This document shows, piece by piece, positions 7,794 through 42,621 of a DNA stretch of 64,000 nucleotides (its first letter is position 1; every line of letters starts with the position of its first letter). This DNA comes from an uncultured Spirochaetaceae bacterium (GTDB lineage: Bacteria > Spirochaetota > Spirochaetia > Sphaerochaetales > Sphaerochaetaceae), in assembly GCA_944390015.1 (NCBI GenBank), contig CALXOL010000006.1, forward strand, positions 1-64,000, read 5' to 3'. Below the pieces are notes generated by a model that made no database searches, had not been told where the DNA came from, and was given only the letters and a program-made list of their open reading frames with translations. A program made the translations under genes and the position numbers.

Positions 7794-10072
7794 ATAAGAA
7801 AGGTTTTGATGATATCGAGTTAGGCCTCGTATTGAATATGGTCAGAAGATTCTCTCTTTTTTCTGAGAGTGATGAATATATTAATTACGATGCCTTTACC
7901 ACCGATGAGAAAATTCTCAGTGCAAGATATGAGAAGATTGATGACTATATGACAAGGCTCTCAGGGGAGAATGATTTGGATTATTTTCCATCGATTTCGC
8001 ATATCTTCTCATTCGTGAAGAAGAGCCATCAGGATATCGCAAGTTCGGATGTATATCTCGTCGGTGTGTTCATCGCATCATATGTGAAGATGCTTTCATT
8101 TCTTTCAAGAGAAGATGAGGTAGCTGAGGATCTTATCGCGCTTAAGGATGAGATACTCTATTCTCTTGATGCGGAGGGGAACGTCTATGAGAACCATCGA
8201 AGGCTTCTTCCGCTAAGGCGTGAGCTTGAGAGTGCAAAAAGCAGAAGGCAGAGTTATGCCGTATCATTCATGCATGATAATCAGTCGATTCTCCAGGGAG
8301 ATAATCCCCTATATCGGGATCAGAGGATAGTTATTCCTGTAAAAGCCTTTGAGAAAAATAAAGTAAAGGGGTATCTTCAGGGCTCCTCTGCATCAGGACA
8401 GACTCTTTTCATGGAACCTCTCGAGCTTATTTCATATAACAATGATGTCGTTTTAGCTGAGGAGAGGATAAAGGACGAGATCAGCCGGATTAAACATGAG
8501 CTTGCAGAGAAGGCAAGGGCTGTTATCTGGACAATCAAGGATATGGAGAGGGAGGCTAAGGATTTTGATTTCCATTACTCTTTTGCAGTATGGAACGGAA
8601 AAGTAGGCGCAAAGCATATCAGAAAGGGAGATAGGATACGGCTCATAGATGCGTCCCATCCCCTTTTGAAAAAGGCAGTTCCGATATCCATCACTATTCC
8701 AAGTGAGATAAGATGCGTTGTTTTTTCCGGTGCGAATGCAGGTGGAAAGACTGTCACTATGAAGACAATAGCACTTTTTGCAGCACTTAATCAGATTTCA
8801 TCTTTTGTGCCGGCTAAGGAGGAGTCCGAGCTTCCGTATTTTGATAACATCCTCACCGATATCGGAGATGGGCAGAGCATACTCAGTGATGAGTCCACAT
8901 TCTCCTCCCATCTTGCCAACATCTCATATGTTATAAGAAATACGAATGAAACCTCTCTCATACTCCTCGATGAGCTTGGAAGTGGCACAGATCCCGATGA
9001 AGGGGCAGCTCTTGCTCTTTCTGTTCTTGATTATCTTAAGGACAAGGCCCGTCTAACACTCTCTTCATCCCATTATTCGAAAGTAAAGACACATGCCTAT
9101 ACGACCGATGGCATGATGAACGCATCGATGGCGTTCAGTGAGGATACGGCCATGCCCCTTTACAGGGTAATAGAGAATATCCCGGGGGACAGTCATGCAA
9201 TCGATGCGGCAAAGAGGATGCATCTTCCAAAAGAGATCGTAGAAAATGCCAGGCTGATACTATCAGATAGAAATGAGAGTGCCGCCTCTCTTATTTCCTC
9301 CTTAATAAAGAAGAGCCGTACACTCGATAAGAAGATTTCTGAGGCGGAATTAAGGAGAAGGAAAGCAGAGCAACGTGAGAAGGAGCTCGAAGAGAAGCTT
9401 TTAGAAGAAGAAAAAAAGGTAAGAGAACTTGAAAAATGCGGGCTAAGTGAGATTAACTCGTTCCTTACTGACTCCAGAAGAACTTTGGAGCATCTTATCC
9501 GGGACATACAGACTGGAACGCTTGATAAGACGAAAATCAAAAGCGCAAAGGCCTTCATGGACAGGATAAAGGAAAAAGAAGAGAAGATAAGGGATAGTGT
9601 TGAAAAAGCCGAGGATGAAGGCAATGATGAGAGGCCACTGAGCATCGGAGAATCAGTTCTTTGTGGAAAGAGCAGAGTAAGGGGAAGAATTCTAGAGAAG
9701 AGGGGGAAAAACTATCTGGTACTTCTTGAAAGTGGTTTAAAACTTACTTTAAAAGGCTCTGATCTTGAGAGCTTTTCAGATAAGAAAGAGGTGAGTCTTC
9801 CATCTTTTTCAAAGTCCAGTAAGAAGGCCGAGTATGAGATGGATTTGAGAGGACTAACAGCAGCAGAGGCGATTGAGAGGGTTGAGGATCAGATCGAAGC
9901 TGCGATCATTTCCTCTCTTAAGAGCTTTTCGATAATCCATGGGCTTGGAGACGGAATACTTATGAGAAGGATTCATGACTATCTCAAAAACAGGGAGGAG
10001 GTGGACTCATACTATTTCGCCAGGCCTGAGGACGGAGGCATGGGAAAAACTTACGTGAATCTCAAAGGATGA
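7787..10072 (+). CDS. mutS2: endonuclease MutS2
   Basis: The 761-residue protein is MutS2, a MutS paralogue without the mismatch-recognition domain. It acts on branched DNA and, as shown in Firmicutes, on collided ribosomes. Seen are the core/clamp region (1-290), Walker A GANAGGKTVT (about 315), LDELGSGTDPDEGAALA (signature and Walker B), a long coiled coil rich in E, K and R (about 500-590), and a C-terminal Smr nuclease domain (MDLRGLTAAEA; HGLGDGILMRRI) from about 683. Length is normal. The start overlaps rsgA; pairing with a ribosome-maturation GTPase fits a ribosome-related role. Confidence 0.92.
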   Translation: MVNKKGFDDIELGLVLNMVRRFSLFSESDEYINYDAFTTDEKILSARYEKIDDYMTRLSGENDLDYFPSISHIFSFVKKSHQDIASSDVYLVGVFIASYVKMLSFLSREDEVAEDLIALKDEILYSLDAEGNVYENHRRLLPLRRELESAKSRRQSYAVSFMHDNQSILQGDNPLYRDQRIVIPVKAFEKNKVKGYLQGSSASGQTLFMEPLELISYNNDVVLAEERIKDEISRIKHELAEKARAVIWTIKDMEREAKDFDFHYSFAVWNGKVGAKHIRKGDRIRLIDASHPLLKKAVPISITIPSEIRCVVFSGANAGGKTVTMKTIALFAALNQISSFVPAKEESELPYFDNILTDIGDGQSILSDESTFSSHLANISYVIRNTNETSLILLDELGSGTDPDEGAALALSVLDYLKDKARLTLSSSHYSKVKTHAYTTDGMMNASMAFSEDTAMPLYRVIENIPGDSHAIDAAKRMHLPKEIVENARLILSDRNESAASLISSLIKKSRTLDKKISEAELRRRKAEQREKELEEKLLEEEKKVRELEKCGLSEINSFLTDSRRTLEHLIRDIQTGTLDKTKIKSAKAFMDRIKEKEEKIRDSVEKAEDEGNDERPLSIGESVLCGKSRVRGRILEKRGKNYLVLLESGLKLTLKGSDLESFSDKKEVSLPSFSKSSKKAEYEMDLRGLTAAEAIERVEDQIEAAIISSLKSFSIIHGLGDGILMRRIHDYLKNREEVDSYYFARPEDGGMGKTYVNLKG

Positions 10073-10081
10073 AAATTTTTC

Positions 10082-10112
10082 TTTACAAACTAAGAAAACC
10101 ATGCGATAAAAT
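10082..10112 (+). promoter_or_regulatory. putative promoter for the udp leader RNA
   Basis: TTTACA (10082-10087) and TAAAAT (10107-10112) are 19 bp apart; an alternative -10 GATAAA (10105-10110) gives 17 bp. Transcription would begin near 10117-10120, right before the RNA stems described in the next entry. Confidence 0.45.
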
Positions 10113-10307
10113 AGATAGATAGGAAAAGGAAATCCGCTTTTAGGATCTGGTCGGAAAGAAAACACCAGCAAAGAACAAATCCTAGAAGATAACCTGTATG
10201 AGTAATAGGCAGGAAAGAAAAGTACATCCTATCGTATCTGGCTTAAAAATTAAGCCGTGAGAGCAGAGGAGAGGCTCTGAGAGCTAAGAAAACTCCTCTG
10301 TTTTTTT
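10113..10307 (+). ncRNA. structured leader RNA with terminator upstream of udp; possible riboswitch/attenuator
   Basis: A 5' arm AGATAGATAGG (10113-10123) pairs with CCTATCGTATCT (10228-10239) with one bulge and encloses a multi-branched region: stem TAGGAT/ATCCTA (10141-10146/10179-10184) topped by CTGGT/ACCAG (10147-10151/10164-10168), and CCTG/CAGG (10193-10196/10210-10213). A perfect 7-bp hairpin follows at once (10240-10256), then a terminator, CAGAGGAG (10264-10271) with CTCCTCTG (10293-10300) and seven T. AGAGC (10260-10264) can instead pair with GCTCT (10274-10278), which would occlude the terminator's 5' arm. The udp ribosome-binding site starts nine bases after the T-run. No known riboswitch consensus was recognised. 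It could also be a free small RNA. Confidence 0.6.
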
Positions 10308-10325
10308 ATGCATTCAGGAGGCTGT

Positions 10326-11108
10326 ATGACGGATTACATGGATGGAACGGGTATTCAGTATCATTTACATATAAAGAAGGGCGATGTGGGAAGGTATGTT
10401 ATTCTTCCCGGAGATCCCAAGAGGGTTCCTCTGATTGCCGCTTATCTTGATGATGCATCTCTTGTCGCTGATAACAGGGAGTATGTAACATATACGGGAA
10501 CTCTCCTTGGAGAGAAAGTCAGTGTTACAAGTACCGGAATCGGAGGCCCCAGTGCAGCAATTGCAGTTGAGGAGCTTTTCAAATCGGGAGCCGATACGTT
10601 TATAAGAATGGGAACATGTGGCGGTATCAAGCTCAGTGTCATGGGTGGAGATGTCGTTATCGCCACAGGAGCCGTCAGGGCAGAGGGAACAAGTAGAGAA
10701 TACGCTCCAATTGAATTTCCCGCTGTCGCGGATTTTAGCGTGGTAGAGGCTATGAAGAAGGCCGCTGAGGATATGAAGCTTAAAAGCCATATCGGCATAG
10801 TCCAGTGTAAGGACAGTTTTTACGGTCAGCACGATCCTGATATAATGCCAGTCAGTTATGACCTGCTTAATAAATGGGAGGCTTGGCGTCGTCTAGGAGT
10901 TCTTGCAAGCGAGATGGAGAGTTCCACTATTTTCACAGTAGCTTCCTATCTTGGTGCAAGAGCGGGATCCTGCTTTTTTGTCGTAGCCAATCAGGAGAGG
11001 GAGAAGGCAGGACTTGAGAATCCGAAATTCCATGATACGGACTCTGCGATCCGTCTTGCAGTCGAGTCAATAAAGAATCTTATTATCAAAGATAGAAATC
11101 TTTCTTGA
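10326..11108 (+). CDS. udp: uridine phosphorylase
   Basis: A 260-residue nucleoside phosphorylase of the PNP/UDP family, cleaving uridine with phosphate to uracil and ribose-1-phosphate in pyrimidine salvage. Seen are ILPGDPKRV (phosphate site), the glycine-rich [22 protein letters not shown] and [10 protein letters not shown] (nucleoside-binding Met-Glu). The ATG at 10326 has AGGAGG five bases upstream; an earlier in-frame ATG at 10308 lies directly on the terminator T-run and lacks a ribosome-binding site. The gene stands alone behind the structured leader and overlaps the convergent GIY-YIG-like gene by 23 bp. Broader nucleoside specificity is possible. Confidence 0.88.
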
Positions 11109-11394
11109 GCTTACTGTAGTATTCTATTCTCTCTTTTAATAGTTCATCGAGCTCTCCCTTGCTCTCTGCTTCCTTATCGAGTGCAATGTCGAAGAGTTCG
11201 AGGCCTGTGGCGGTATAGTCATCCTCCAGGCTTTTTACATCGAAAGTGCCCATGTCCAGGGCGAATCTGATTCTTGAGTAGTCTTTAACAACATCTGTGC
11301 TTTTTACAAGCAGTATCTTTCCAGAGAGCATATTCTCTATCTTTATAATCCCGATTACCTTATCTTTTCTTAGAAACTCTGCGTTTTTATCCAT
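11086..11394 (-). CDS. small GIY-YIG nuclease-like protein
   Basis: This 102-residue protein resembles the short GIY-YIG-like proteins found in Firmicutes and spirochaetes: an N-terminal [23 protein letters not shown] block, a middle [11 protein letters not shown], then [20 protein letters not shown]. The GIY/YIG motif itself is degenerate (GII, no clear YIG), so activity is uncertain. No Shine-Dalgarno sequence and no convincing promoter were found before the ATG at 11394. Its 3' end overlaps udp. Family assignment is by pattern only. Confidence 0.45.
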
Positions 11395-42222: not shown

Positions 42223-42589
42223 GGGGGTGTTTTGGTTTCGACTTGCTTTACCAGGTCGGAGACTGCGGGCCAAGAGCTGACTTGTAAAACCGGCAAGAAA
42301 AAATAACTGCAAAGAAAGAAGAAGACGACAACGTCGAAACTCTTGCATTTGCTGCTTAATTAAACGCAGCATGGCTTCTCCAGACGAGGCTCTGAGGCTG
42401 GATGAGGTCAACACAAACCAGGGCTTTCCTTTCAAGGCGCACTCACTTGGAAGGGAGATTAAGTGGGTGATACCTTCTTTCAACGCTAGTGATGCGGCCT
42501 AGAAGGAAGGAAAATAAGAAGCATTACTACGTTCCGTAGACGTTTTCGGATGGACTGTTAGGACGGGAGTTCGAGTCTCCCCACCTCCA
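42223..42589 (+). ncRNA. ssrA: tmRNA (transfer-messenger RNA)
   Basis: The 5' GGGGGTGTTTTGGTTTCGAC and the 3' GGGAGTTCGAGTCTCCC plus CACCTCCA are the tRNA-like ends; GGGGGTG pairs with CACCTCC including one G-U. CCA is not encoded. The tag reading frame begins with GCA at 42309 and ends with TAA at 42357-42359: AKKEEDDNVETLAFAA. It rescues stalled ribosomes and marks the nascent protein for proteolysis. The tag ends AFAA instead of the usual LAA. The partner smpB is 1.4 kb downstream on the other strand. Confidence 0.95.
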
Positions 42590-42591
42590 TT

Positions 42592-42621
42592 GGGGCCAGG
42601 ATTTCTGGCCTCTAATTTTTT
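42592..42621 (+). terminator. tmRNA terminator
   Basis: GGGGCCAG (42592-42599) pairs with CTGGCCTC (42605-42612), including one G-T, and is followed by TAATTTTTT. It overlaps the 3' end of the convergent ATPase gene. Confidence 0.85.

Follow-up and report, generated by a model that had tools for sequence, protein, structure and literature searches.

Terminating riboswitches are conserved multi-helix RNAs at the 5' ends of metabolic mRNAs; their junctions and loops contain invariant bases, and an intrinsic terminator immediately precedes the Shine-Dalgarno sequence (SD). The leader of udp, the uridine phosphorylase gene, in the window (the whole stretch of 64,000 nucleotides analysed, from an uncultured Spirochaetaceae bacterium) is arranged likewise, but it differs in that it matches none of the Rfam 15 families in sequence or structure, has no convincingly conserved exchange between terminator and antiterminator, and combines a single target gene in a single genus with a ligand that is only putative. 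In the LoaP/dfn antitermination system of Bacillus velezensis, a leader RNA element is also followed by an intrinsic terminator; LoaP acts through a hairpin of the 5' leader upstream of that terminator and requires a UNCG loop in it (PMC12691694). All five genomes that carry the udp leader also encode a LoaP-like NusG paralogue; however, this leader lacks the UNCG-loop dfn hairpin, and its target is one short metabolic gene instead of a long biosynthetic operon. The PyrR-regulated pyr leaders likewise place a terminator before a pyrimidine gene, but no PyrR protein was found in the leader-bearing genomes and no PyrR RNA family matches; the PyrR protein model, which finds its controls, detected none in seven genomes (five with the leader and two without).

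The first-pass annotation, made from the letters of the window, could fit the udp leader to no known riboswitch consensus, and the Rfam search it proposed agrees with this: the 4227 families of Rfam 15 gave no gathering match in the window leader and nothing plausible in the five leaders even at an E threshold of 10. Moreover, no uridine, uracil or cytidine riboswitch is described in the literature searched, which lay mostly outside subscription journals. The udp leader is best classed as a riboswitch-like leader family that is undescribed and narrow in distribution, with a clear gene context.

Gene context and distribution of the udp leader

Between the end of mutS2 at 10072, whose product is identified as MutS2, and the start of udp lie a promoter, a folded RNA and an intrinsic terminator, in that order (Table 1). 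The udp product scores 331.5 bits against the NCBIfam equivalog TIGR01718 (cut-off 280.3), which identifies it as a uridine phosphorylase. A promoter belonging to this gap had been proposed before and is borne out by the alignment, in which both elements (CTTTACAA and CATGCGATAAA) are unchanged across five species but are separated by a variable spacer. An automatic promoter scan made no call at this promoter; from the spacing to its elements, transcription is predicted to start at about 10117. On the other side of udp, a 102-aa ORF on the minus strand (11086-11394) is convergent with it, and a protein resembling its product is encoded just upstream of udp in two other genomes (L107 and L110, in G057 and G055, respectively).

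Table 1. Features of the udp leader region (positions in the window) and the NusG paralogue encoded in the same genome
Feature	Position	Strand	Remarks
Promoter	10082-10110	+	-35 TTTACA 10082-10087; 17-nt spacer; extended TG 10102-10103; -10 GATAAA 10105-10110
P1, 5' strand	10118-10124	+	GATAGGA; invariant in 5 species; partner 10227-10233
J1/2	10125-10136	+	AAAGGAAATCCG; from alignments
P2 arm	10137-10188	+	10137-10146/10179-10188 and 10147-10151/10164-10168; sequence variable, structure kept; compensatory changes
P3 hairpin	10193-10213	+	CCTGT-ATGAGTAATAG-GCAGG; invariant loop residues
J3/1	10214-10226	+	A-rich; 3' end is invariant GTACA (10222-10226); from alignment
P1, 3' strand	10227-10233	+	TCCTATC; invariant in 5 species
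P4 hairpin	10239-10257	+	10239-10246/10250-10257; stem kept, sequence and length vary
Intrinsic terminator	10264-10307	+	stem 10264-10271/10293-10300; inner hairpin 10273-10277/10281-10285; T7 10301-10307
SD of udp	10316-10321	+	AGGAGG; from sequence; 4 nt before ATG 10326
udp	10326-11108	+	uridine phosphorylase, 260 aa; downstream (regulated) gene; TIGR01718 equivalog
NusG paralogue	G000:C2:123-665 (L153:111-665)	-	adjoins CBS-domain gene; orthologues in G010, G045, G054 and G062

A protein search of GTDB genomes and of 48 genomes of the window's genus (the Candidatus Ornithospirochaeta group) gave more than 100 udp loci. The same leader is present in five species of this genus of uncultured gut spirochaetes, always before udp and once per genome: the window genome (G000), Candidatus Ornithospirochaeta stercorigallinarum (L021/G062), L022/G054, L104/G045 and L023/G010. 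Hardly any differences among them are seen in the promoter elements, in P1, in P3 and its loop, in the GTACATCC block or in the terminator stem; the promoter spacer, P2, P4 and the terminator loop are variable. A covariance model of related udp leaders, another step proposed at first pass, was built and, when trained on four members, recovered the held-out and most diverged fifth (L023, E = 1.5e-13). No further members were found in the genus, the family (139 genomes) or a 394-genome sample of the class, which yielded only these five, once each. The DNA pattern GAGTAATA...GTACATCC returned three members and eight scattered matches from 392 genomes drawn evenly from the phylum, a sample that left out the members in G010 and G062; the eight were treated as chance. 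Weak model matches elsewhere (L136-L141, 18-23 bits) were inspected and also treated as chance, the best-looking of them (L140, 20.6 bits, E 0.17) apparently lying antisense within a coding sequence, judging by the reading frame. The leader family is narrow, with one target gene in five species of one genus.

Where close relatives lack the leader, udp is preceded by a short gap or a different gene, and no comparable terminator directly before it was seen in a scan that treated minus-strand loci only roughly. In the udp protein tree the five leader-bearing genes form one clade (support 99/99), so that one gain accounts for the distribution of the leader. A complex regulatory RNA together with a new promoter would hence have been gained once inside a genus, at a place where relatives have a short, leaderless gap.

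Fold of the core and selection upon it

The predicted fold of the leader has an energy of -67 kcal/mol (z = -4.47), and none of 200 dinucleotide shuffles folded as well. Its core resembles a three-way junction (P1/P2/P3) and is followed by P4 and then by the terminator, which agrees with the branched interior and the neighbouring hairpin noticed in the first-pass annotation. The closing stem drawn there (10113-10123 with 10228-10239) also exists, but its conserved part is only the 7 bp of P1; the extension 10113-10117/10235-10239 has to be given up, since it depends on a GATA repeat that lies no later than the predicted start and is not retained in relatives. Similarly, GGAAAG is indeed found twice (10153-10158 and 10212-10217) but does not make a conserved repeat, the first copy being absent from L023 and the second variable. 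In J1/2, GGAAAT is kept in four of the five members, including the most diverged L023, and reads GAAAAT in L022. The P4 stem has 4-8 bp across members, except in L023, where it has 9 bp and a long loop. P3 varies only at the G/A (10209) that pairs with the closing U and at a single base of the loop; the P3 element was not found elsewhere in eight genomes with up to three mismatches allowed, and its pattern had no match in viral contigs.

The P2 arm indicates selection for pairing. Nine of its pairs have changed on both sides and are still paired, with 99.3% of cells paired, in a five-sequence alignment that was fitted to the model and so leans towards the proposed structure; sliding one strand, as a control, abolishes the pairing, and no slid control comes near it. 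A four-sequence MAFFT alignment, which was not fitted to the model, still contains six compensated pairs. P1 and P3 are nearly invariant, hence covariation says little about them, and their pairing rests mainly on prediction (base-pair probabilities of 0.56-0.98 for P1 and 0.95-0.99 for P3) and on complementarity in all five leaders. Fourfold-degenerate sites of udp match at only 26-46% between the leader-bearing species, which is near saturation, so the near-identity of the core indicates strong purifying selection.

Comparison of the five species shows the leader, its predicted fold, promoter and terminator to be under strong selection and tied to udp, and strongly supports a structured cis-regulatory leader with a terminator before this gene. 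The first-pass annotation had named absent covariation, a match to a known family and conservation of the terminator only as findings that would speak against such an element; we instead find covariation, no known family and conservation across the core. That the region is an ordinary spacer with a chance fold has a negligible probability, since covariation, conservation and recovery of the held-out member contradict it and already refute it, and nothing beyond the low complexity of some segments points in its direction.

Termination before udp

The perfect 8-bp terminator stem with its seven T residues, followed at once by the ribosome-binding site of udp, is confirmed, and both stem and T run are kept in all five leaders. 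The terminator hairpin has a predicted energy of -13.6 to -15.1 kcal/mol and a predicted formation probability of 0.998-0.999 across members. A two-state switch had been suggested in which AGAGC (10260-10264) pairs with GCTCT (10274-10278); the segments are present, but the pairing is too weak for an antiterminator (-4.5 kcal/mol vs -15.1 kcal/mol for the terminator hairpin), and it is cut to 4 bp in L022, L104 and L023. Hence, a switch based on this pairing is unsupported.

Besides the core helices and the terminator, a helix search over all five members returned a small number of alternatives, none of which is a convincingly conserved, mutually exclusive pairing of core and terminator. Pairing of the J1/2-P2 5' strand with the 5' arm of the terminator is better than shuffled sequences in all five species, at P values of only 0.007-0.2, and as a switch helix it is a lead and not a result. 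The 3' strand of P3 can also pair with the terminator 3' arm in all five (7 bp, mostly G-U), no better than shuffled sequences, and this candidate was rejected. In addition, CTCCT of the terminator 3' arm (10293-10297) is complementary to the udp SD (10316-10320), with 7 bp in L022 and L104. A read-through transcript could mask its own SD in this way if the terminator hairpin were open, but the pairing is not counted as evidence because it is expected for any CTCCT beside an SD. As the predicted terminator forms with such high probability and no convincing competitor emerged, the default state is probably termination, and a ligand or a protein would be required for read-through. A default-off state fits substrate induction of a catabolic enzyme.

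The position of the terminator suggests that udp expression would pass through the leader, since the T run and the SD leave no room for a udp promoter between them (10307 to 10316). In four genomes transcription could also come from mutS2, yet such transcripts would run into the same terminator. In L022, udp and the leader have moved together and lie behind an apparent aminotransferase gene, as judged by sequence, instead of mutS2 (L022:1662-1720). This upstream gene ends with its own terminator (TGCTTGGC/GCCAGGCA, an 8-bp stem with T6), so that expression of udp in L022 should need the leader promoter together with read-through.

Proposed mechanism and rival explanations

The reading we lean towards, with somewhat better than even confidence, is that the udp mRNA 5' leader is a riboswitch-type transcription attenuator of udp. 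RNA polymerase would start at about 10117, so that transcription leads straight into the P1 stem, and the nascent RNA would fold into the P1/P2/P3 core, whose invariant bases are found in P1, in the junctions and in the loop of P3. P4 would follow, and then, adjoining the udp ribosome-binding site, the intrinsic terminator, which would stop transcription by default. A small molecule bound to the core may then let the polymerase read through, giving an ON switch. As in known riboswitches, we find a conserved, structured 5' leader with covariation, a constant target gene and a terminator as the putative expression platform. Because udp degrades uridine, the likely ligand would be uridine or a close metabolite (uracil, deoxyuridine or ribose-1-phosphate), and the nucleoside sensor considered in the first-pass annotation would fit a gene that encodes a uridine phosphorylase equivalog. 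That the leader represents a new riboswitch class, which senses a pyrimidine nucleoside (uridine) or a breakdown product and turns on uridine phosphorylase, is a more tentative and rather doubtful proposal. Direct binding of uridine or ribose-1-phosphate would fill a gap, as no riboswitch for a pyrimidine nucleoside is described in the literature searched and a 2022 review knew of no class for an unmodified sugar (PMC10043782). The RNA is short, and its synthesis and testing do not require the host to be cultured.

The polymerase might also be carried past the terminator by the LoaP-like NusG paralogue, which would bind the nascent RNA with the leader as its loading site. The known leader layout of LoaP (PMC12691694) is that of the udp leader, and no conserved competing RNA pairing would be required. 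A direct protein search confirmed a second NusG in every one of the five leader genomes, whereas of 40 leaderless genomes with a udp match only 3 clearly have it; this co-occurrence lies in one clade, however, and so does not count as independent. Leaderless congeners (G058, G019 and G020) have the paralogue too, with similar gene surroundings in the two of these that were examined (G058 and G019), and its identity to the G054 query is 71-80% in the leader clade, 63% in G002 and 35-44% in G019, G020 and G058. Its best NCBIfam match is the antiterminator LoaP, but the score of 73 bits is below the cut-off of 125. Moreover, TNCG occurs only in J1/2 or, in L023, in P2, and never in a hairpin loop, while the P3 element is absent elsewhere in the eight genomes searched. 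We consider this explanation unlikely. Control by another RNA-binding regulator or by a small RNA is judged quite unlikely: the invariant loop and junction bases would suit an aptamer and a protein site equally well, but there is no candidate, given that PyrR is found neither in the leader-bearing genomes nor in the two leaderless ones, and no Rfam protein-binding leader matches.

A self-standing small RNA gene that merely precedes udp would account for a transcript of about 190 nt with its own promoter and terminator, but it is improbable in view of the missing space for a udp promoter, the joint displacement of leader and udp in L022, and the fact that the leader never occurs away from udp in the genomes searched. 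Translation attenuation by a leader peptide seems highly improbable. Its start would be an ATG in the P3 loop (10198, MSNRQE...), and all five leaders do contain ATG AGT AAT ARR CAG GAA. However, the spacing from CAGG to GTACATCC is 8, 8, 6, 9 and 10 nt, so the peptide frame is lost after six codons, the peptides end at differing places, and the ATG lies within a hairpin and has no clear SD. Selection at the RNA level is indicated by the codons AGT AAT CAG GAA, whose third positions are the same in all five leaders.

Elsewhere in the window, a tmRNA gene was located at 42223-42592 (Rfam RF00023, 143.9 bits).
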